Positions 15,140 through 35,473 of a DNA stretch of 36,189 bases are shown in pieces. The DNA is taken from positions 1-36,189 of the forward strand of contig JAQUHN010000018.1 of assembly GCA_028683555.1 (NCBI GenBank), given 5' to 3'. The first letter of the stretch is position 1, and each line of letters begins with the position of its first letter. Made by a program: the position numbers and the translations under genes. Origin of the DNA: Geobacteraceae bacterium. Its GTDB lineage: Bacteria > Desulfobacterota > Desulfuromonadia > Geobacterales > Geobacteraceae. Below the pieces are notes generated by a model. That model worked only from the letters and a program-made list of their open reading frames with translations, made no database searches and was not told where the DNA came from.

Positions 15140-16588
15140 ATGGGAAGACAGAAAACGGAGCGTGATGTAGTTGATGAATCCTTTCTCTACGAGATGGTTG
15201 CCGATCGAATTGCCCGCTTGATCCGTAAGGGGACATATCGTACCGGAGAGCGGATTCCTTCTGTGCGTACTCTCAGCAGGCAGATGGAAGTGAGTATTTC
15301 AACCGTTGTCAAAGCGTATTTTTACCTTGAAAACCAAGGTCTTATCGAGGCCAGGCCGCAGTCCGGATACTACGTCAGGCATCAGCTTAGCCGGGTTCAA
15401 CCGGAGCCGGAAATGAGTCAGTCCGCGCCTGCTCCGACCCATGTGAGTGTCGGTGAACTCGTCATGATGGTCATGCGTGACATGCGCAATCCCGACCTGG
15501 TTCCGCTTGGGGTTGCGACACCCAATCCGGAGAATCTGCCGACCGATAAACTGAACAGGATCCTTTCAACTGTGGCGCGTCGCAATAAATATCAGGCGAT
15601 TTCCTACGATTTTCCCCCCGGTTGTGAACGGCTTCGCGTCCAGTTGGCACAGCGAGCGATGAAAGTCGGTTGTTCGCTTACTCCCGATCAGATCGTGATC
15701 ACCAGCGGTTGTCTTGAGGCGGTCATGCTCTCCCTGCGTGCCGTGTGCCGCCCGGGCGATACGATTGCTATCGAGACGCCGATTTTTTACAACCTGCTGC
15801 AGGTAATCGAGATGCTCAATCTGAAAGCCTTGGAGATTCCGACCCATCCCGTATACGGTATCAGTCTGTCCGCTCTCCGCTACGCCCTGGAGCACAACCC
15901 GGTACACGCCTGCCTGGTCATCCCGAACTTCAACAATCCGTTCGGCAGTCGCATGCCGGAGGAAAACAAGCAGGAACTGGTCAGGATTCTTGCGGCCCGG
16001 GGTGTTCCTCTCATTGAAAACGATGTCTATGGTGATCTTGGTTTCATGAATGAGCGACCCAGCGTCGCAAAGCGCTACGACACGAAAGGGTTGGTGATCC
16101 ACTGCTCGTCGTTTTCCAAGACCCTTGCGCCCGGGTACCGTGTCGGGTGGGTAGTCGCTGGTCAATTTCAGGAGAGCATCGAGAGATTGAAAGCGGTCAG
16201 TAATATTGCCTCGGCAACCCTGCCACAGATGGCCATTGCCGAGTTTCTTGCCAATGGCGGATATGATCAGTATTTGAGGAAGATTCGAGGAGTCTACGGT
16301 CGCCAGACATCACTGATGGCAAAGGCGGTGGAGAGGTATTTCCCAAAGGGGACCAGGGTCAGTACACCATCCGGTGGATTTGTTCTCTGGGTCGAGATGC
16401 CTGAAGGGGTTGATTCCATTCAATTGTATGAAGAATCCTTGCGCTGTGGTGTTACCATTGCGCCCGGCAAGATATTCTCCGCTACGGGAAAGTACGGCAA
16501 TTACATCCGGCTCAATACTGCGTACTGGTCAAAGCGGGTCGAGCAAGCCGTTGCCACGGTGGGTGGCCTGGCAAACGCCCAGTTATAG
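15140..16588 (+). CDS. MocR-type GntR/aminotransferase-like transcription regulator
   Basis: I choose ATG 15140, preceded by GAAGGGGA, giving 482 residues; in-frame GTG 15101 and ATG 15113 are less well served. Residues about 14-80 form a GntR winged helix (RIPSVRTLSRQMEVSISTVVKAY). The C-terminal 370 residues are a fold-type I PLP aminotransferase domain with NFNNPFG, ENDVYGD and SFSKTLAPGYRVGW, in which Lys327 should form the Schiff base. Such regulators sense PLP, amines or amino acids rather than catalyse. Its divergent position and the repeated words between the genes indicate that it controls aor and itself. The effector is unknown. Its 3' end overlaps the convergent Spy-like gene by 77 bases. 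Confidence 0.9.
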   Translation: MGRQKTERDVVDESFLYEMVADRIARLIRKGTYRTGERIPSVRTLSRQMEVSISTVVKAYFYLENQGLIEARPQSGYYVRHQLSRVQPEPEMSQSAPAPTHVSVGELVMMVMRDMRNPDLVPLGVATPNPENLPTDKLNRILSTVARRNKYQAISYDFPPGCERLRVQLAQRAMKVGCSLTPDQIVITSGCLEAVMLSLRAVCRPGDTIAIETPIFYNLLQVIEMLNLKALEIPTHPVYGISLSALRYALEHNPVHACLVIPNFNNPFGSRMPEENKQELVRILAARGVPLIENDVYGDLGFMNERPSVAKRYDTKGLVIHCSSFSKTLAPGYRVGWVVAGQFQESIERLKAVSNIASATLPQMAIAEFLANGGYDQYLRKIRGVYGRQTSLMAKAVERYFPKGTRVSTPSGGFVLWVEMPEGVDSIQLYEESLRCGVTIAPGKIFSATGKYGNYIRLNTAYWSKRVEQAVATVGGLANAQL

Positions 16589-17525
16589 AAGAAACCTGTC
16601 GCGGTATCGTTGAACCGGACAGACGAGACGTTGCGCCGGTTCCCTTCATAGGTCGCAGGTTGATAGCAGAATCTTTCTCCCCTTGGCACAGTATCCGCGT
16701 CCGGATACACGACTCCAATTCGTTGGTCTTTTCTCCGGCCATTTCCCGCTGCGCTTCGCCGAGCAATTGAAACATTTTCGCGGTAGTCCTTTCAGAGACG
16801 ATCAGGATAGCCGCCATTTTTTCCGCCTGTCGGTTGGCTCTGTTTCGGGCTTCGCTGTCATTGAAAAAACGGAAACATGACAGACACTGGGCATTTGCGT
16901 TGTTTGTCCTGCCCAGTGGCGAGATTTGCCGCCGTGCTGTATCGATGGCTTCCGCCACGTTTGCTGCCTGGTCATTGGTAAGGGAAAGAAGGGTATTCAT
17001 TCTTTCGGCAACAACTGATGCCAAGTGGGGGGTGTTGTTTTCTCCGGAGAGAAGAATTTCGATAGACTGTAAAATTTCTTCCGCCTGTTTCTGTTGTTCC
17101 CTGGAAAGGACAGCATAGAGTTTCGCATCCAACCGCTCCCTTTCAACCAGGATTTCCGCCAGCAGGGATTGCACTCTCTGCTGGAAGGAGTGTGTGGACG
17201 CTTCATCGAAAATGCCGGTACGGGTGGATTGGTGAATTTTTTCTCTGACAGCAAAGAATTTTCTCAGTAGTGGTTGTAGTACCGGTTGGTGATTCTCGAA
17301 AAGGGATGCGACGCCGGCGAGTTGTTTAGTCGAGAGATTGAGAGGGTTTGCCACTGTGAATAGGGGGGCCAAGCGGGATGGTGGCTGGCATGAGTACTCG
17401 TAGGGAAAATACTGTGGAAGCGACGTACCCGCCTGCATGCAGGTGCGCCCGCTGTCCTTGGTGGCGCAGATGGATATTGCCGTGGCACAGAAGGAAAGCA
17501 GCAGCAGGCAACAGGTCTTTTTCAT
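16512..17525 (-). CDS. Secreted Spy/CpxP-like protein with two LTxxQ-like modules
   Basis: The 337-residue protein starts with a probable signal peptide (MKKTCCLLLLSFCATAISICA). The mature region is helical, with Spy/CpxP-type features: LSTKQLAGVASL and LYAVLSREQQKQ in a first module (about 65-150) and LTNDQAANVAEA followed by MFQLLGEAQREM in a second (about 175-265). Members of that family are periplasmic chaperones or metal sensors. The last 70 residues are proline/arginine-rich without family character, and their coding DNA runs antisense into the mocR 3' end, so they may be a non-conserved tail or reflect a lost upstream stop. Several extra cysteines (CLSC pair near 216) are unusual. The two-module reading is my inference. 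Confidence 0.65.
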   Translation of the reverse strand: MKKTCCLLLLSFCATAISICATKDSGRTCMQAGTSLPQYFPYEYSCQPPSRLAPLFTVANPLNLSTKQLAGVASLFENHQPVLQPLLRKFFAVREKIHQSTRTGIFDEASTHSFQQRVQSLLAEILVERERLDAKLYAVLSREQQKQAEEILQSIEILLSGENNTPHLASVVAERMNTLLSLTNDQAANVAEAIDTARRQISPLGRTNNANAQCLSCFRFFNDSEARNRANRQAEKMAAILIVSERTTAKMFQLLGEAQREMAGEKTNELESCIRTRILCQGEKDSAINLRPMKGTGATSRLSGSTIPRQVSSITGRLPGHPPWQRLARPALTSTQY

Positions 17526-17914
17526 GCGCGGAGGTCCCTTCGGGAGTAGCAGCTAAATAGTTTTTAACTGGAAACGGTTCTTTTTCGCCCTGGCTGTGTC
17601 AGTCCGCGGGCTTGCTTGTGCGGCGTACCTGGGTACGCCGCAGCGCAACTCCTTGATTTCCTTGCCAGGACAAAAAAACCCTCGTTTCCGAATTGAAAAC
17701 CAATAGTTTCAAATCCGGGGTTTCCGGATGGAAACTAAATATATTCCCTGTACGAGAAAATGCGCCCCATCAGGCATGCTGTCCGAACCGGATGACTGTT
17801 GGTGATCGGCTACAGGAGGTTTCAGGAACGTTCCAATCCGGTCCCTGCAGCTGCTTTCCGGACGGACAATGGAACCAGAACTCGATCTCCCTACCATGAC
17901 TTGCGGGCTCGCTC
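17526..17914. other. Intergenic region carrying repeat copy 1
   Basis: No gene is convincing in these 389 bases. Positions 17570-17735 are the first copy of the dispersed repeat, annotated separately. The remaining bases (17736-17914) contain only short open frames without ribosome sites. A GTTAA half-word near 17563-17567 (minus strand) is too degenerate to call a CpxR box for the Spy-like gene at 17525. Confidence 0.6.
17570..17735 (+). repeat. Dispersed repeat, copy 1 (most complete)
   Basis: About 166 bp. The left end reads GGAAACGGTTCTTTTT, followed by CCTGGCTGTGTCA. The centre is a perfect palindrome at 17620-17641 (GCGGCGTACC-TG-GGTACGCCGC). GCCAGGACAAAAAAACCC then mirrors the left part as an imperfect inverted repeat. 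The right end carries GAAAACC...TAGTTTC and an ATCCGG...CCGGATGG hairpin, closing with GGAAAC. Related copies lie at 29509-29672 and 33885-34041. It has no coding potential and no recognisable transposase ends, so a REP/BIME-like or MITE-like element is the best description. Confidence 0.8.
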
Positions 17915-18157
17915 CTAGTTTTCACTGGGCTTTTGAATGGTCTTGCCAGCGAGGGATATCTCCTGACTGTGTGTTTCCATGGTCAGTTTTTGCAGAATGA
18001 CGCTCATGATTGCAAAATCAGCAGGATCCTGGTCGCCGGAATACCGGGCAAGCGGATTCGTTCCATAAAGCTTCCCGGAACCGGGCGGTAATGTGCCGCT
18101 GATGGAAAGTTTCCCGCGTTGGGACAGCTTGCTTTGCACTAGCTGTTCTTTTTTCAT
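17915..18157 (-). CDS. Hypothetical 80-residue protein
   Basis: The ATG at 18157 has a good AGAGGAA site 5-6 bases upstream; the frame stays open further upstream but without a supported start. The product is a small, polar, basic-then-neutral protein starting MKKEQLVQSKLSQRGK, with a central SGTLPPGSGKLYG stretch, NPLARYSGDQDPADFAIMSVILQKL and a polar tail. I recognise no domain, signal peptide or membrane segment. It lies between two Spy-like genes on the same strand, downstream of a terminator, so it would need its own promoter in 18158-18270. It could be genuine or a chance frame; the ribosome site is the main support. Confidence 0.4.
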   Translation of the reverse strand: MKKEQLVQSKLSQRGKLSISGTLPPGSGKLYGTNPLARYSGDQDPADFAIMSVILQKLTMETHSQEISLAGKTIQKPSEN

Positions 18158-18515
18158 GCAATTCCTCTCCCGATAATGGCATGGGCGGACGCTGATTCCT
18201 TCAGAAAAGTTTTTCGTGACGTCGGGGTCTTCCGGTGCATTAGATAATTTCCAGTCCTGAACAGGATGATAAAAAATGCGGCTCGGGGAGGAACACCGAG
18301 CCGCCAAGAAGGCATCACGGAGGGTAATGCCCGGAGACGCTCTTTGAACTCTTCTGGCTGGTAGTGGTTTGCGGTTTATTCGGCATATTCCGGTGCTCAA
18401 TGTTACGTTTTTCGCGTCGTTACAGATGTGCTATATGGCGTCGAAGCGATCCATGGGGGAACCTTGTACCAGGGGAGGAATACCGGTTTTCCCCCATTGA
18501 CCGATCCGATGGGGG
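18158..18515. other. Intergenic region after the second Spy-like gene
   Basis: This region contains the minus-strand terminator at 18304-18270, more than 200 bases after the Spy-like stop. That leaves an unusually long 3' untranslated region or a separate short transcript (roughly 18460-18270). A small hairpin GGCAT-N11-ATGCC (about 18311-18331) precedes the terminator. The only minus-strand frame of note there is 23 codons (MPNKPQTTT...), without a good ribosome site. Confidence 0.5.
18270..18304 (-). terminator. Rho-independent terminator reading leftward
   Basis: On the minus strand a 9-bp perfect stem GCGGCTCGG / CCGAGCCGC (18304-18296 with 18286-18278) has a 9-base loop and is followed by A then TTTTTT. 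It most likely ends the transcript of the Spy-like gene at 18516-19049 or of a short RNA between them. Confidence 0.85.
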
Positions 18516-19049
18516 TTATCGCTCATGCCTGGTGTCGGGATTCGGTCCTTTTGGCGGTCGGGGATGAGCAGGGTGGTGATTTCTTTCCGTTTCTAGCTGC
18601 AGAAGGATATCTCGCTGTTCCGGTGTCAGGATCGCGGTAATTTGACGGTTTGTCTTTACATGGGAAACAATCAGCTCGGCTTCGGTTTTTGCCAGGTCGC
18701 CGGCAATGACCCGGAGGGCCGTTTCGTCAAAGTTCGTTGCTCGTTCGGCCTGCATAAGGCGTTGCCGGATTTCATCCTGTTTCTTCAGCAGTGGCGCTAT
18801 CTTCTTTTGTTCACTGGTCAGGATTTCGGCAATTTTCTTTTCCTGGTCGCCATTGAGGTGGAGGGGTGAGTTTTTCCCCTGTGCAGCGAACATCTGTGGC
18901 GGCATCCCTTTGCCCGGGGGCATTTCATCCCCCTTCTGCTTATCCTGCAATGTTTTCGGAGCATCCGGCGGAGTTGCTGCATGGGCTCCGGCAACTCCTG
19001 ACAGCAATGTCGCACTCAGAAGTGATACCATCAAGATAGGCCTTCTCAT
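18516..19049 (-). CDS. Spy/CpxP-family periplasmic protein
   Basis: The start is ATG 19049, with AAAGGAG just upstream, giving 177 residues; the frame extends upstream but without a ribosome site. A clean signal peptide (MRRPILMVSLLSATLLSGVAGAHA, cleavage after AHA) precedes a proline-rich linker and a helical LTxxQ domain: LNGDQEKKIAEIL, RLMQAERATNFDETALR and ILTPEQRDILLQLE. The last is the family's defining LTxxQ motif. A histidine/proline-rich tail could bind metal. Spy/CpxP proteins are ATP-independent periplasmic chaperones and negative regulators of Cpx signalling. A CpxR-type box lies at 19188-19202, about 140 bases upstream, and a CpxRA-like pair is 2 kb away, so Cpx control is likely. 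Confidence 0.85.
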   Translation of the reverse strand: MRRPILMVSLLSATLLSGVAGAHAATPPDAPKTLQDKQKGDEMPPGKGMPPQMFAAQGKNSPLHLNGDQEKKIAEILTSEQKKIAPLLKKQDEIRQRLMQAERATNFDETALRVIAGDLAKTEAELIVSHVKTNRQITAILTPEQRDILLQLETERNHHPAHPRPPKGPNPDTRHER

Positions 19050-19187
19050 AGTTTTCTCCTTTATCGTATCTTGCAGGTGTGTTTTCGTTGTTTTCCGATG
19101 GGCTTGACTATACGGCTTTCCGCCGTCAAGTTGGGTTAAGAGATATGCCTTGAATGTTAAGATTGCCGACATGCGGGAGGAGCTGTT

Positions 19188-27782: not shown

Positions 27783-27859
27783 GGCGGTGTAGCTCAGCCG
27801 GTTAGAGCATACGGCTCATATCCGTAGTGTCCGGGGTTCAAGTCCCTGCACCGCCACCA
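27783..27859 (+). tRNA. tRNA with CAU anticodon (probably elongator Met; Ile2 possible)
   Basis: This is a complete 77-base cloverleaf: acceptor stem GGCGGTG/CACCGCC, discriminator A and encoded CCA (27857-27859), D arm GCTC/GAGC, anticodon stem TACGG/CCGTA with loop CTCATAT (anticodon CAT at 27817-27819), and T arm CGGGG/CCCTG. The paired G1-C72 excludes initiator tRNA. CAU tRNAs are either elongator Met or the Ile2 tRNA whose C34 is changed to lysidine by TilS. The next gene is tilS, so the identity matters. I lean to Met by general resemblance to delta-proteobacterial tRNA-Met, without proof. Confidence 0.96.
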
Positions 27860-29423: not shown

Positions 29424-29508
29424 TATCATATGTGTTCTGCCTTTCCGTGCGCCCAGCATGCGGCGCACTTCTTGATGATTTTTCTTAGCCAGTTAGTTGA
29501 TTTCCATC

Positions 29509-29672
29509 GGAAACGGGTCTTTTTTGCCCTGGCTGTGTCAATCATCGGCCTCGACGGTGCGACGTACCCAAATTCGTTCCCGTATAACCTGCCGATTTAC
29601 TGCCATGAAAGAAACTCTCCGCTGCCGTTTTGGAAATCTTCTGTATCACATCCGGACTTTCCGGATGGAATC
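29509..29672 (+). repeat. Dispersed repeat, copy 2 (ftsH leader)
   Basis: About 164 bp, matching copy 1 at the left end (GGAAACGGGTCTTTTTTGCC, then CTGGCTGTGTCA), in the middle (GTGCGACGTACCC, right palindrome arm lost; GATTT-CT-GCCA-GA-AAA-CTC) and at the right end (CATCCGGACTTTCCGGATGG). The whole element is diverged but colinear. TTTCCATCGGAAA forms a small palindrome at its left edge (29501-29513). It ends 17 bases before the ftsH start codon and so forms the untranslated leader of ftsH. Confidence 0.75.
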
Positions 29673-29689
29673 AGTTACCGGGGGTACCT

Positions 29690-31525
29690 TTGAATCAATT
29701 TCATAAAAATCTTGCACTGTGGCTTGTCATCGTCCTGATGATGATCCTTGTCTTCAATCTTTTCAATAAATCCCAAACGGGCCAGGAAAAGACGAATTAT
29801 ACTGAATTCATCGCTGCTCTTGATGCGGGGAAGGTTTCGACCGTCACGCTGCGTGGTAACGAAATCATCGGTAAGTATACCAGCGGCAAGGACTTCAAGA
29901 CCTATAAACCCGAAGACCCGCAGTTGACCCAGAAGCTGCTGGAAAAGAAGATACCGGTTACGGCCGAGCCGGCGGAAGACAAGGTACCCTGGTTTTCCAT
30001 GCTGCTGTCCTGGTTTCCGCTGATTCTCCTGGTTGCCGTCTGGATTTTCTTCATGCGCCAGATGCAGTCCGGCGGCGGCAAGGCAATGGCGTTCGGCAAG
30101 AGCCGGGCAAAACTGTTGACCGAGGCCCAGGGAAAGATAACCTTCGAGGATGTGGCTGGTGTGGATGAGGCCAAGGAAGAGCTTGCCGAGATCATTTCTT
30201 TCCTGAAAGATCCGAAAAAGTTTACCAAGCTTGGCGGAAGATTGCCGAAAGGGGTGCTGCTGGTCGGCCCTCCGGGCACCGGCAAGACTCTGCTCGCCCG
30301 TGCCATAGCCGGCGAAGCGGGGGTTCCGTTTTTCTCCATTTCCGGTTCGGATTTCGTTGAAATGTTTGTCGGTGTCGGTGCGAGCCGGGTACGCGACCTG
30401 TTCGTTCAAGGGAAAAAGAATGCCCCCTGCATTATCTTCATCGATGAAATAGACGCTGTCGGACGGCATCGCGGTGCGGGTCTCGGCGGCGGTCATGACG
30501 AGCGGGAGCAGACCCTCAACCAGCTTCTGGTGGAAATGGACGGTTTCGAGTCCAACGAAGGCGTTATCCTCATCCCCGCCACCAACAGGCCTGACGTGCT
30601 CGACCCGGCGCTGCTCCGGCCGGGGCGTTTCGACCGCCAGGTTGTGGTGCCGAGGCCGGACGTCAAGGGTCGCGAAGAGATTCTCAAGGTCCACTCGCGC
30701 AAAACGCCCCTCTCTCCCGGTGTCGATATGTCGGTCATTGCTCGCGGAACGCCGGGATTCTCCGGGGCCGATCTTGCCAATGTCGTTAATGAAGCCGCAC
30801 TGCTTGCCGCGCGCAAGGACCGTAACTTCGTCGAGATGCAGGACCTGGATGACGCCAAGGACAAGGTCCTGATGGGTGTCGAGCGCCGCAGCATGGTCAT
30901 TTCCGAGGAGGAGAAGAAGAATACCGCCTACCATGAGGCCGGACATACCCTGGTGGCGAAACTCATTCCCGGCACCGATCCGGTACACAAGGTTTCCATC
31001 ATTCCCCGTGGCAGGGCGCTTGGCATAACAATGCAGCTGCCCACCGAGGACAAACACTCCTACAACAAGGAAACCCTGCTGAACAGGATTGCGGTTCTCA
31101 TGGGTGGTCGTGCCGCTGAAGAGCTCGTCTTCCACACCATGACCACCGGTGCCGGTAACGATATCGAGCATGCCACCGAGATCGCCAGGAAAATGATCTG
31201 CGAATGGGGCATGAGCGACCGTCTCGGTCCGGTTTCCTTCGGCAAAAAGGATGAGCAGATTTTCCTCGGTCGCGAGATGGCATCGATGAAAAACTACAGC
31301 GAGGCAACCGCGGTCGAGATCGATGAAGAAATCAGACGGATTGTGGAAGATAACTACAGTCGTGCCCGGACTCTACTTACCGACAATATCGATGTTCTCC
31401 ACAAGCTGTCTCGAGCACTTATCGAGAAGGAAAATCTGAACGGCGCCGATGTGGACGTGATCATCGGCCGCGAAGCCGTTGCGACTCCTACTCCGGTTGA
31501 ATCCGGAGATTCGCCGGCGGTGTGA
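29690..31525 (+). CDS. ftsH: ATP-dependent zinc metalloprotease FtsH
   Basis: I choose TTG 29690 (611 residues), because the protein then starts [15 protein letters not shown] (N-terminal Leu read as Met), like other Geobacter FtsH proteins; a longer frame from 29630 would be encoded by the repeat element. Two membrane helices (about 9-26 and 107-122) flank a periplasmic domain. The AAA+ domain has Walker A GPPGTGKT (193-200), Walker [12 protein letters not shown], and the second region of homology [25 protein letters not shown] (415-419) is the zinc protease site. FtsH degrades misassembled membrane proteins and short-lived regulators. The unusual TTG start and the repeat-derived leader suggest translational control. 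The stop overlaps folP as GTGA. Confidence 0.97.
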
Positions 31526-32439
31526 TTCCGCCGGTCGGGATTATGAGGCATACCGTGATGCCTGATACCTCAGGAGTTGGCGCGCAAAGCGCTTCCCCCA
31601 TCTGGAAGGTTGGGGAGCGGACGTTGGAGTTTACGCACCGTCCCCATATCATGGGGATTCTCAACGTAACGCCGGACTCCTTTTCAGACGGCTCGTTGTT
31701 TCTCGACCCCGAAAGGGCGGTGGAGCGTGCCCTGGAGATGGAGGAGGCGGGCGCCGACAGTATCGATATCGGCGGTGAAAGCACTCGTCCCTTTGCTCCT
31801 GCGGTTGCCGAGGATCAGGAGTTGCAGAGAGTGATTCCGGTCATTGAAAGGCTTGCCGGCCGTCTCCGTGTGCCGATCTCCATTGATACCTACAAGGCGT
31901 CCGTGGCAAGGGAAGCCATTCGTGCCGGAGCTGAAATTGTCAATGATATCAGCGGCGGCACCTTCGATCCCCGTATGCTCGATGTGGTGGCAGCTTCAAC
32001 CGCCGGTCTGGTTGTCATGCATACCCGGGGAAAGCCGACCGAGATGCAACGGAATACGTCCTATGCCGCGATCATTCCTGAGATTATCCAGTTCTTGCGT
32101 GAGCGACTGTCCGCGGCGGGGTCACGGGGTATTGCCCCTGAGCGGATCGTGGTGGATCCCGGTATCGGCTTTGGCAAGAGCCTTCAGGGCAACCTAGAAA
32201 TACTCCGGAACCTGGAGCAGCTTGCCGTACTCGATCGCCCCATTCTTATCGGCACATCGCGCAAGACGTTCATCGGTACGATACTTGGTCGCGAGGTGGA
32301 AGACAGGGCCTTCGGCACAGCGGCTACGATAGCGTTGGCCGTTGCCAACGGTGCTTCCATCCTCAGGGTGCATGACGTCCGGTCCATGCGCGACGCGGCG
32401 ATTATGGCCCATGCCGTGATACGGCCTCCGGCAGAATAA
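31522..32439 (+). CDS. folP: Dihydropteroate synthase
   Basis: This enzyme condenses dihydropterin pyrophosphate with p-aminobenzoate in folate synthesis. From GTG 31522, which overlaps the ftsH stop, it has 305 residues; ATG 31543 or 31558 are possible starts because the conserved part begins near residue 28. Signatures are [16 protein letters not shown] (pterin loop), [44 protein letters not shown] and [11 protein letters not shown]. All expected motifs are present, and TSRKTFIG carries the sulfonamide/PABA-site Ser-Arg-Lys. Close coupling to ftsH and the order ftsH-folP-cdaA-cdaR-glmM are conserved in many bacteria. Confidence 0.96.
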
Positions 32440-32646
32440 CCGTTCCCGCCGGCATCACCTGTTCCCATCCTGTCTTATTCGACTTCTGCCAGGCTGCTGA
32501 AAATCGTCATGAGTAAGGCCGGATGCTCGATGCACGGAGTGTAACCGCTCTGGATTGGCGGGGGAATTTGGCATTGCCGGATAGTGCCGCCGGTTCTCTC
32601 TAATATTTTTTTCATAGCCTGTTAAGACCTATTGGTGGACGTGATG

Positions 32647-33414
32647 ATGACCCCCCTGGGACATGTAGCCTGGCTTGACCTCGTCGACATCCTGCTTGTC
32701 GCGTTCATCCTCTACCAGATCATTCTGCTCATTAAAGGGACGATCGCTGTCCGCCTGCTGGTCGGTCTGACCGGCCTTTTCCTTTTTTACTTTTTTTCCC
32801 AGTTGTTCGGCTTGCAGACACTGTACTGGATTCTGGACAGTTTTTTCGGCGCCATTCTCCTCGTCCTGGTGGTAATTTTCCAGCATGATATTCGTCGAGC
32901 CCTGTCCTCCATGGGGAGGGGGTCGTTTGTCAGGGAGCGGGAAGAGGGAGGTTCCGAGCTTGTGGAGGAACTGGTCACGGCAACGGATGTGCTGTCGAAG
33001 AAGAAAGTCGGCGCCTTGATTGTCGTTGAACGGGAAATCGAAGTGGAGAACCATCTGGAAGTAGGCACCCAGATTGATGCCAAGGTTACCAGCGAACTTA
33101 TTACCTCGATTTTTCTTCCCTACTCTCCGATCCATGACGGCGCGGTAATAATCGAGAAAGAAAAATTGACCAAGGCCGGTTGTTTCCTGCCGCTTTCCCG
33201 CAACCCTGAACTGAGCAAGGCGCTTGGGACACGTCATCGGGCGGCAATAGGCCTCACGGAGATTACGGATGCCGTGGTGCTCGTTGTTTCGGAGGAAACC
33301 GGAGCGGTTTCGCTGGCCTGCGATGGAAAAATAACGCGGGACATTGATCAAAACACGTTGCGCAAGATGCTGAAGAAGCTGATCCATCTCAAGCAGCGCA
33401 GGTGGTTCCGATGA
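32647..33414 (+). CDS. cdaA: Diadenylate cyclase CdaA
   Basis: I prefer ATG 32647, 7 bases after GGTGGA, giving 255 residues; TTG 32632, GTG 32635 and ATG 32644 are in-frame alternatives. Three membrane helices (about 12-80) precede a DisA_N/DAC domain with the catalytic DGA (164-166, in SPIHDGAVII) and RHR (196-198, in LGTRHRAAIG) motifs. The enzyme makes cyclic di-AMP from two ATP at the inner membrane face. It overlaps the cdaR gene as ATGA. The cdaA-cdaR-glmM order is a known conserved module in which CdaR and GlmM modulate the cyclase. The 207-base gap after folP contains no obvious terminator. Confidence 0.94.
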   Translation: MTPLGHVAWLDLVDILLVAFILYQIILLIKGTIAVRLLVGLTGLFLFYFFSQLFGLQTLYWILDSFFGAILLVLVVIFQHDIRRALSSMGRGSFVREREEGGSELVEELVTATDVLSKKKVGALIVVEREIEVENHLEVGTQIDAKVTSELITSIFLPYSPIHDGAVIIEKEKLTKAGCFLPLSRNPELSKALGTRHRAAIGLTEITDAVVLVVSEETGAVSLACDGKITRDIDQNTLRKMLKKLIHLKQRRWFR

Positions 33415-33809
33415 TACACTGGCAGGTGCTGGGCAAAAACCTCTCCCTGAAACTTCTTGCGCTGACACTGGCGGTTGCGCTCTGGATGCTGGCGACCGGT
33501 GCGAAAGACGCGAAGCGGGATATTTCCGTACCCCTGTTGTTGCAGAACCTGCCCGCCGGACTTTCCATAGCCGGCCCGCTGCCCGGTGCGATCGACGTTA
33601 CGATCGCCGGACCGAAGATCCGCTTGCTGGGTCTTCGATCCGAGGAACTGTCCCTTTCGCTGGATTTGAGTAATCTCCGTGCCGGGACCGTAACTTTCAG
33701 CGGGATGGAAAAGCGTCTCCGGTTGCCGCCGGGGATCACCGTGATGCGGGTATTTCCCTCCGTCATCGAGGTGAAGCTGGTTCGCGCTCCGCGGCAGGGA
33801 AATAAATGA
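33411..33809 (+). CDS. cdaR: CdaR/YbbR-domain protein, single-repeat form
   Basis: ATG 33411 overlaps the cdaA stop (ATGA), giving 132 residues. One N-terminal membrane helix (NLSLKLLALTLAVALWMLATG, about 10-30) is followed by a single YbbR domain: ISVPLLLQNLPAGL, VTIAGPKIRLLGL, LSLSLDLSNLRAGTVTF and VMRVFPSVIEVKL. Firmicute CdaR proteins have three or four YbbR repeats, so this is a short form. The known role of the family is to bind CdaA in the membrane and tune c-di-AMP production. Overlap with cdaA supports complex formation. Confidence 0.88.
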   Translation: MIHWQVLGKNLSLKLLALTLAVALWMLATGAKDAKRDISVPLLLQNLPAGLSIAGPLPGAIDVTIAGPKIRLLGLRSEELSLSLDLSNLRAGTVTFSGMEKRLRLPPGITVMRVFPSVIEVKLVRAPRQGNK

Positions 33810-34111
33810 GATAGTGTTTGTCAGGAACGTGTCGGCACCGTGTTGGATGGCACTGCGCAAGGCTTTCATGATAGACACGTGATAGCTAGCCGCCGATCCG
33901 GGAATCCGGATTAGATGCTAGCGGTTTTCTACTCGGGAACGGGGAATTATTTGTTCCGGCACGATTCTTTTGTCAGTGAAATTGAGAACGAAGGATGCCC
34001 GGATGGTAATGCGCGGGGCTGAATCAAAAGGACCCGTTTCCGGAAACTAGCGTGCTCTGCGCGGTACTATGTGGAGCTGATCAGATAAATACATGAAGAG
34101 GATGAAATTAT
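33810..34111. other. Intergenic region between cdaR and glmM
   Basis: The 302 bases hold no gene. More than half is the inverted third copy of the dispersed repeat (33885-34041). It includes the palindrome GTTTCCGGAAAC (34036-34047) and the hairpin ATCCGG-GAAT-CCGGAT (33895-33910). I see no clear terminator, so the cdaA-cdaR transcript may run through into glmM. Confidence 0.6.
33885..34041 (-). repeat. Dispersed repeat, copy 3 (inverted)
   Basis: Read on the minus strand it starts GGAAACGGGTCCTTTT (as in copy 2) and ends with a segment aligning to copy 1 over about 50 bases (CGTTCCCGAGTAGAAAACC, then TAG, ATCCGG and CCGGAT in the same order and spacing). ACAAAAGAATC corresponds to the ACAAAAAAACCC of copy 1. 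The middle is strongly diverged. Length (about 157 bp) and end structure agree with the other copies. Confidence 0.65.
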
Positions 34112-35473
34112 ATGAAGAAACTGTTCGGAACTGATGGCGTGCGCGGCGTGGCCAATGTCTACCCCATGACCACGGAAATGGCAATGCAGATCGGCCGGGC
34201 CGCGGCCCATGTCTTCAAAAAAGACGGCGATAGCCGGAGACACCGTATCGTGATCGGCAAAGATACCCGACTTTCCGGCTATATGATTGAAAATGCGCTG
34301 GTGGCAGGGATCTGCTCCATGGGCGTTGATGTATTGCTGGTGGGTCCCTTGCCGACGCCCGGGATTGCCAATATAACTTCTTCGATGCGGGCCGATGCCG
34401 GCGTGGTTATCTCCGCCTCCCATAATCCGTTCCAGGATAATGGTATCAAGTTTTTCTCCCGCAAGGGTATGAAGCTTCCCGATGCCGTGGAACTTACCAT
34501 TGAAGAACTGATTTTCTCCAAGAACATCGACTCCTTTCGTCCCACTGCCACCGAGGTCGGCAAGGCCTACCGCATTGATGACGCGGCCGGGCGCTACATT
34601 GTTTTCCTCAAGAACGCTTTTCCCAAGGAACTGGACCTGGCCGGGATGAAGATCGTCCTGGACTGCGCCAATGGCGCTGCCTACAAGGTGGCTCCGGCGG
34701 TGTTCCAGGAACTGGGAGCAGAAGTCATTCCGCTCGGCATCAAGCCCAATGGTACGAACATCAACGCCGGGTGCGGCTCTCTGTATCCCGAGGTTATCAG
34801 TGAGGCGGTCAGGAACAATGGTGCCGATCTCGGTATCGCCCTTGACGGCGATGCAGACCGCGTTATCTTTGTCGATGAATACGGCAATGAAGTGGATGGC
34901 GACCATATCATGGCCATTTGCGCCACGGACCTGCTGAAAAGAAGGAAACTGCGCAAAAACACCCTGGTGGCAACGGTGATGAGTAACATGGGCCTGGATA
35001 TCGCCATTAGAAACGCCGGCGGCAAGATCGTCAAGACTGCGGTCGGTGACCGGTACGTGGTCGAAGAAATGATCAAAAACGGCTACAACTTTGGCGGCGA
35101 GCAGTCCGGGCATCTCATTTTCCTCGACTACAACACCACCGGCGATGGCATCCAGTCAGCGCTCCAGGTGTTGGCCATCATGCGGAGAAAGGAGCTGCGG
35201 CTTTCAGAGTTGGCTAAGGTCATGACGGCGCTGCCCCAGGTTCTGGTCAATGTGCGGGTGAAGAAGAAAAAAGATATTACCACCTTCCCGGAAATTGCCG
35301 CGCTGATTGCCGATATCGAGGGAAAAATGAAGGATGAAGGGCGGATACTGATCCGTTATTCCGGAACCGAACCACTGTTGAGGATCATGCTCGAAGGACG
35401 CGACAGCGATGAAATACAGAGTTGGGCAGAGGAGATCGCCGGACTTGTTCGCACCAGGATAGGGGGAGAGTAA
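34112..35473 (+). CDS. glmM: Phosphoglucosamine mutase
   Basis: This 453-residue enzyme interconverts glucosamine-6-phosphate and glucosamine-1-phosphate, feeding UDP-GlcNAc for peptidoglycan and lipopolysaccharide. It starts [14 protein letters not shown], has the phosphoserine loop [12 protein letters not shown] (Ser103 the phospho-acceptor), the metal loop DGDADR (245-250), the sugar-binding GEQSGH near residues 329-334, and the phosphate-binding [11 protein letters not shown] near the C-terminus. GAAGAGGA lies upstream of the ATG. It is followed one base later by pdxJ. GlmM of other bacteria binds and inhibits CdaA, which is encoded just upstream here. Confidence 0.97.

Follow-up and report, generated by a model that had tools for sequence, protein, structure and literature searches.

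Three related non-coding segments lie in a 36,189-nucleotide stretch (hereafter the window; contig JAQUHN010000018.1, 1-36,189) of a Geobacteraceae bacterium (GCA_028683555.1), and the question is what kind of repeat they represent. A preliminary description, made from the sequence alone, had regarded them as one dispersed palindromic family and had proposed a REP/BIME-like palindrome, a MITE-like element or a structured RNA leader. The source genome (G000) is a draft assembly of 3.88 Mb in 293 contigs, which is 93% complete. The repeat is, with high confidence, a MITE of 176 bp and thus a non-autonomous DNA transposon. The following features were located in the window:

17554-17559, no strand: left target-site duplication of copy 1, TAAATA (sequence)
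17560-17735, plus strand: copy 1, full-length 176-bp element (sequence, genome and profile searches)
17560-17575, plus strand: left terminal inverted repeat of copy 1, GTTTTTAACTGGAAAC, with three mismatches to GTTTYCATCCGGAAAC
17620-17641, plus strand: apical hairpin of copy 1, GCGGCGTACC TG GGTACGCCGC (sequence, folding)
17706-17735, plus strand: right-end hairpin module of copy 1, 30 bp, GTTTCAAATCCGGGGTTTCCGGATGGAAAC
17720-17735, minus strand: right terminal inverted repeat of copy 1, GTTTCCATCCGGAAAC, exact
17736-17741, no strand: right target-site duplication of copy 1, TAAATA (sequence)
29490-29495, no strand: left target-site duplication of copy 2, CAGTTA (sequence)
29496-29671, plus strand: copy 2, 176 bp, between tilS and ftsH (sequence and profile search)
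29672-29677, no strand: right target-site duplication of copy 2, CAGTTA (sequence)
33889-34047, minus strand: copy 3, decayed, about 159 bp, with ends at 34047 and about 33889 (profile search)

The segments of the preliminary description are real, as is the perfect 10-bp core palindrome around TG that it had noted in copy 1; its limits were slightly short, and those of copies 1 and 2 are now set from the flanking duplications. Copy 2 is only about 70% identical to copy 1, yet both measure exactly 176 bp. A profile built from 69 family members matches copy 1 at 17560-17735 (E=4e-55), copy 2 at 29501-29670 (E=1e-29) and the right half alone of copy 3 (33963-33896, minus strand, E=7e-10). Copy 3 reaches 33.0 bits, a score to be compared with 500 dinucleotide shuffles of that stretch, none of which rose above 5 bits; the three segments are thus more alike than chance would make them. 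In addition, the window contains exactly three occurrences of the left-end motif, and nine if three mismatches are allowed (2.05 expected).

Copy 1 is situated 35 bp from the start codon (17525) of an LTXXQ-motif gene (16512-17525, minus strand), on its upstream side, and copy 3 between a YbbR/CdaR-like gene (33402-33809) and glmM (34112-35473). The copies in the window are insertions tolerated beside ftsH and glmM and upstream of the LTXXQ-motif gene. In the region 16512-19172 around copy 1, one LTXXQ-motif gene lies at 16512-17525 and a second at 18516-19172, and the open reading frame between them belongs to no known family. Copies 2 and 3 belong to a single gene cluster, whose genes at 29690-35473 are ftsH, folP (Pterin_bind), cdaA (DAC domain), the ybbR/cdaR-like gene and glmM, the usual c-di-AMP neighbourhood.

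The ends of the element are near-identical 16-bp inverted repeats, GTTTYCATCCGGAAAC, a sequence that occurs 103 times in the source genome with up to two mismatches (a reversed control pattern occurs twice). The target follows the consensus TANNTA and is duplicated over 6 bp, in a few copies over 7 bp (TANNNTA). Duplications were scored in 88 copies of 170-180 or 203-244 bp. The 6-bp duplication is perfect in 53 of them, whereas shuffled pairing of the flanks averaged 3.6 such cases and peaked at 10 over 1000 trials; the search for target-site duplications suggested earlier was thus positive. Furthermore, the two variable bases in the centre of the target agree in 68 of the 88 copies (8.4 expected), and no fixed motif explains this agreement. 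Most copies are 176 bp long, under the limit of about 600 bp that is usual for MITEs and too little for a transposase gene.

The high copy number predicted from the three segments was found as well: the source genome contains 27 detectable loci (E<=1.2e-6, split matches joined), more than the handful below which the preliminary description would have counted as refuted. About 12 of these loci share 92-96% identity with copy 1, and some copies carry an extra 61 bp or so in mid-element and reach about 239 bp. The proposed search of relatives yielded matches in 64 of the 97 genomes searched (own genome and relatives), including all eight of the source genome's genus; in the genus g13 a single genome out of 19 gave a match, a marginal one. 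Named matches belong chiefly to draft genomes of Geobacter, Geobacteraceae and Desulfuromonadales. A plasmid search returned one weak partial match, to pSD of Geobacter anodireducens (72% over half of the length). The 176-bp element had no match in a phage search, and the 16-bp end repeat was found once each in 16 viral contigs. By a crude call of open reading frames, 37 of 40 copies lie outside them. Their orientation relative to genes is mixed; some copies sit between convergent genes and others, in places, close upstream of start codons.

For 40 of 56 copies the closest relative resides in the same genome, and within G017, which we take to be Geotalea daltonii FRC-32, copies are on average 92.5% and at most 99.4% identical. 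Since nearest neighbours are mostly from the same genome and copies can be so similar, amplification has been recent in places. The copies of the source genome in that set average 84%, so that young as well as old copies exist; the mean between genomes is 82%. A point against the MITE reading is that the uniform length of 176 bp together with about 82% identity across genera is unusual for purely neutral repeats.

The site between tilS and ftsH is filled, decayed or empty across species within one genus. G000 and G003 carry the element there and G006 and G007 a remnant, while G005, G004, G001 and more distant genomes are without it; these empty sites are too diverged for a base-by-base view of the join. 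It is the combination of inverted ends, 6-bp TANNTA duplications, the lack of room for a transposase, sites almost always between genes and the filled and empty states of the tilS-ftsH site that argues for a MITE, and of the options named at the outset the MITE-like one is upheld by these copy-specific duplications, the copy number and the presence or absence among relatives.

Two further kinds of element have the ends and the kind of duplication in common with the 176-bp element and are unrelated to it in their interiors: one of 209 bp in G003 (about 12 places by end pattern, six examined) and one of 178 bp in another draft genome. Because only ends and target duplication are shared, the enzyme that reads the ends probably acts in trans. 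A transposase, most likely of the DDE type, would be supplied in trans and recognise the element ends, cut the palindromic AT-rich target TANNTA with a 6-bp stagger and insert the element, and repair of the gaps would then create the target duplication. Such an end-reading enzyme cutting at TANNTA would account for the mainly intergenic insertions and for the ends common to the 176-, 209- and 178-bp types. The fixed length of the target duplication points to the DDE class. Once inserted, the long imperfect palindrome would be unstable, and deletions between short internal direct repeats would reduce it to remnants of graded size (51, 30 and 16 bp) which retain the target duplication.

An autonomous element was sought at insertion-sequence distance in G000, G017, G026 (presumably G. 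uraniireducens Rf4), G003 and all fetched loci. No transposase gene lay between ends in the source draft genome (all ends, up to two mismatches) or in G017 and G026, each assembled as a single contig (up to one mismatch), and no end-flanked transposase gene was present in any fetched locus with looser ends. Likewise, none was enclosed among the exact ends listed for G004, G001, G007, G003 and part of G005, a set that leaves aside G015 and G061. Since no pair of ends enclosed a transposase gene, we infer the enzyme as well as the class to which it belongs; repeated insertion sequences drop out of draft assemblies, which bears on this search, and many described MITEs are without a known autonomous partner. 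Three end pairs at most 6 kb apart passed a loose filter and were rejected, as their ends were unconvincing and their duplications unmatched. An end pair spanning 1079 bp on contig C33 of G003 was also discarded as an autonomous element because it consists of a long-form copy and a separate palindrome.

That the segments form an RNA family, be it a conserved structured leader or a regulatory RNA, is very improbable. The fold is stable (z = -4.0 for copy 1 as single-stranded DNA, z -3.1 for copy 2 as RNA), which is what any near-palindromic MITE shows, and the position of some copies close upstream of start codons would suit a leader, but the mixed orientation and the copies between convergent genes would not. 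An Rfam scan of the window gave no family match above the gathering score at the element; its sole match was a tRNA. Compensatory changes in the core stem, which the preliminary description had proposed to look for, exist at one apical pair (alignment columns 64/80), with G-C in 34 and A-T in 28 copies; otherwise covariation is weak. The paired fraction is 0.904 against 0.886 in column shuffles, and 15 pairs have double changes against 10.1 in the shuffles, within the shuffle maximum of 16. Cells with double changes number 77 against a shuffle maximum of 38, an excess that relatedness alone can produce. Most helices decay on one side, and the palindrome at the tip can be corrected from its own other arm, which also speaks against an RNA leader. 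A promoter scan of copy 1 found no promoter-like site, and a terminator scan three weak terminator-like sites (0.9 expected in shuffles). A tRNA gene is located at 27783-27856 of the window on the plus strand.

An identity as REP/BIME-like palindromes that a RAYT (Y1) transposase mobilises is likewise very improbable. REP/BIME sequences associated with RAYT are palindromes of 20-40 bp without target duplication, and to our knowledge no target duplications are expected from single-strand Y1 transposition. The element does resemble them as a palindromic, intergenic, multi-copy sequence with small hairpin modules at its ends. However, its unit length is fixed at 176 bp and its 6-bp target duplications, of the DDE type, are specific to each copy. 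Neither the REP/BIME-like nor the RNA-leader option is thus supported.

A different matter is the origin of the small forms. The counterpart of the 30-bp right-end module of copy 1 occurs solo with target duplications in relatives. Seven solo 30-bp hairpins from five genomes and six solo 16-bp palindromes were examined, and every one has a perfect 6-bp duplication in otherwise unrelated flanks. From this it could be argued that the 30-bp hairpins, and perhaps the 16-bp palindromes, are themselves mobile at TANNTA with a 6-bp duplication, the more so as the 176-bp element can be read as a composite of a palindrome of about 140 bp, a 6-bp spacer and a 30-bp hairpin; if true, the hairpin would rank among the smallest transposable units known. 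The search pattern for the 30-bp form, however, demanded TANNTA on both sides and was thereby biased toward perfect duplications. Moreover, every size can be obtained by deletion between direct repeats of the long element: GGAAAC yields the 16-bp form, TAGTTTCnCATCCGG the 30-bp form, and the left and inner 16-bp repeats yield the 51-bp form, which is present in G017. That such deletions do occur is indicated by a G017 copy (L188) which lacks exactly the 30-bp part, lost between TAG repeats. These two points make mobile small units improbable, and on the sequences compared here the solo hairpins and palindromes are better understood as putative deletion scars. Nearly precise excision of Tn10 offers a precedent: an inverted-repeat element loses the DNA between short repeats in its interior, and what stays behind is a short palindromic scar together with the target duplication. 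The 30- and 16-bp remnants resemble these scars, although for the 176-bp family we infer the process only from natural genome sequences.

Among known systems, Correia elements and RUP are MITEs tied to IS630-type transposases and duplicate TA (2 bp). They are likewise short, multi-copy, bounded by inverted ends and adjoining genes, but the 176-bp family duplicates 6 bp of TANNTA and sometimes 7. An IS630/Tc1-type MITE was rejected, given that four bases beyond TA are duplicated copy by copy. Closer in host is Chunjie, a MITE of Geobacter uraniireducens Rf4, reported to be 178-235 bp in size and present in tens of intergenic, hairpin-folding copies (Chen et al. 2008, as summarised in PMC10969869). 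Its published signature is a phosphate operon that has been duplicated and carries an insert in one of the two copies (PMC10969869). This insert was located in the duplicated phoU operon of G026, with the ends CAGCGTTGTCCGGTTTGGTTT and the 9-bp duplication AAAAAAAGC. Both families are MITEs of the same bacterial group, similar in size, present in tens of copies, intergenic and hairpin-forming; they differ in their ends and in the length of the duplication, share no similarity and coexist in G026. Identity with Chunjie, which size (176/239 vs 178-235 bp) and host group had suggested, is ruled out by the G026 phoU insert.

MITEAba12 of the Moraxellaceae is described as a MITE that derives from an IS, is non-autonomous and has spread through a bacterial family (PMC6382973); the likeness is one of description only, in different organisms. 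Palindromic intergenic multicopy families have been catalogued from G. metallireducens and from G. bemidjiensis. One palindromic set reportedly recurs in G. sulfurreducens, G. uraniireducens and P. propionicus, and the descriptions, as far as these extracts go, contain neither a MITE label nor target duplications (PMC2700814, PMC2996986). We regard the 176-bp family as a new MITE family of Geobacter-type bacteria; the listed multicopy families may include it (PMC2700814, PMC2996986). A literature search with the end sequence returned papers on unrelated subjects only.

A widespread mobile repeat is now defined in Geobacter-type metal-reducing bacteria, and with its exact ends and target given the transposase becomes searchable. 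In studies of promoters, riboswitches or small RNAs of these bacteria, copies that lie unannotated directly upstream of genes, ftsH among them, could be misleading, and remnants of fixed size that retain the target duplication are a way to read past insertions.

Some single loci add to this picture. In the source genome, L071 (contig C61, just before 42557-42572) is an apparent member of the 209-bp type of G003, an assignment made by eye from a common stretch around GGTGACCGATTAC, and L066 (contig C33, from 7817) is an element of about 103 bp whose ends are similar and whose interior is another hairpin, rich in GC. L013 (contig C250, 10610-10759) is a copy truncated at its right end; about 40 bp beyond it follows a sequence which by eye resembles the first part of a gene for RNase P RNA. 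L305 on contig C33 of G003 contains at 2263-2291 a perfect 29-bp palindrome made up of the same ends; it has the inverted flanks GAGACTC/GAGTCTC and no direct duplication.
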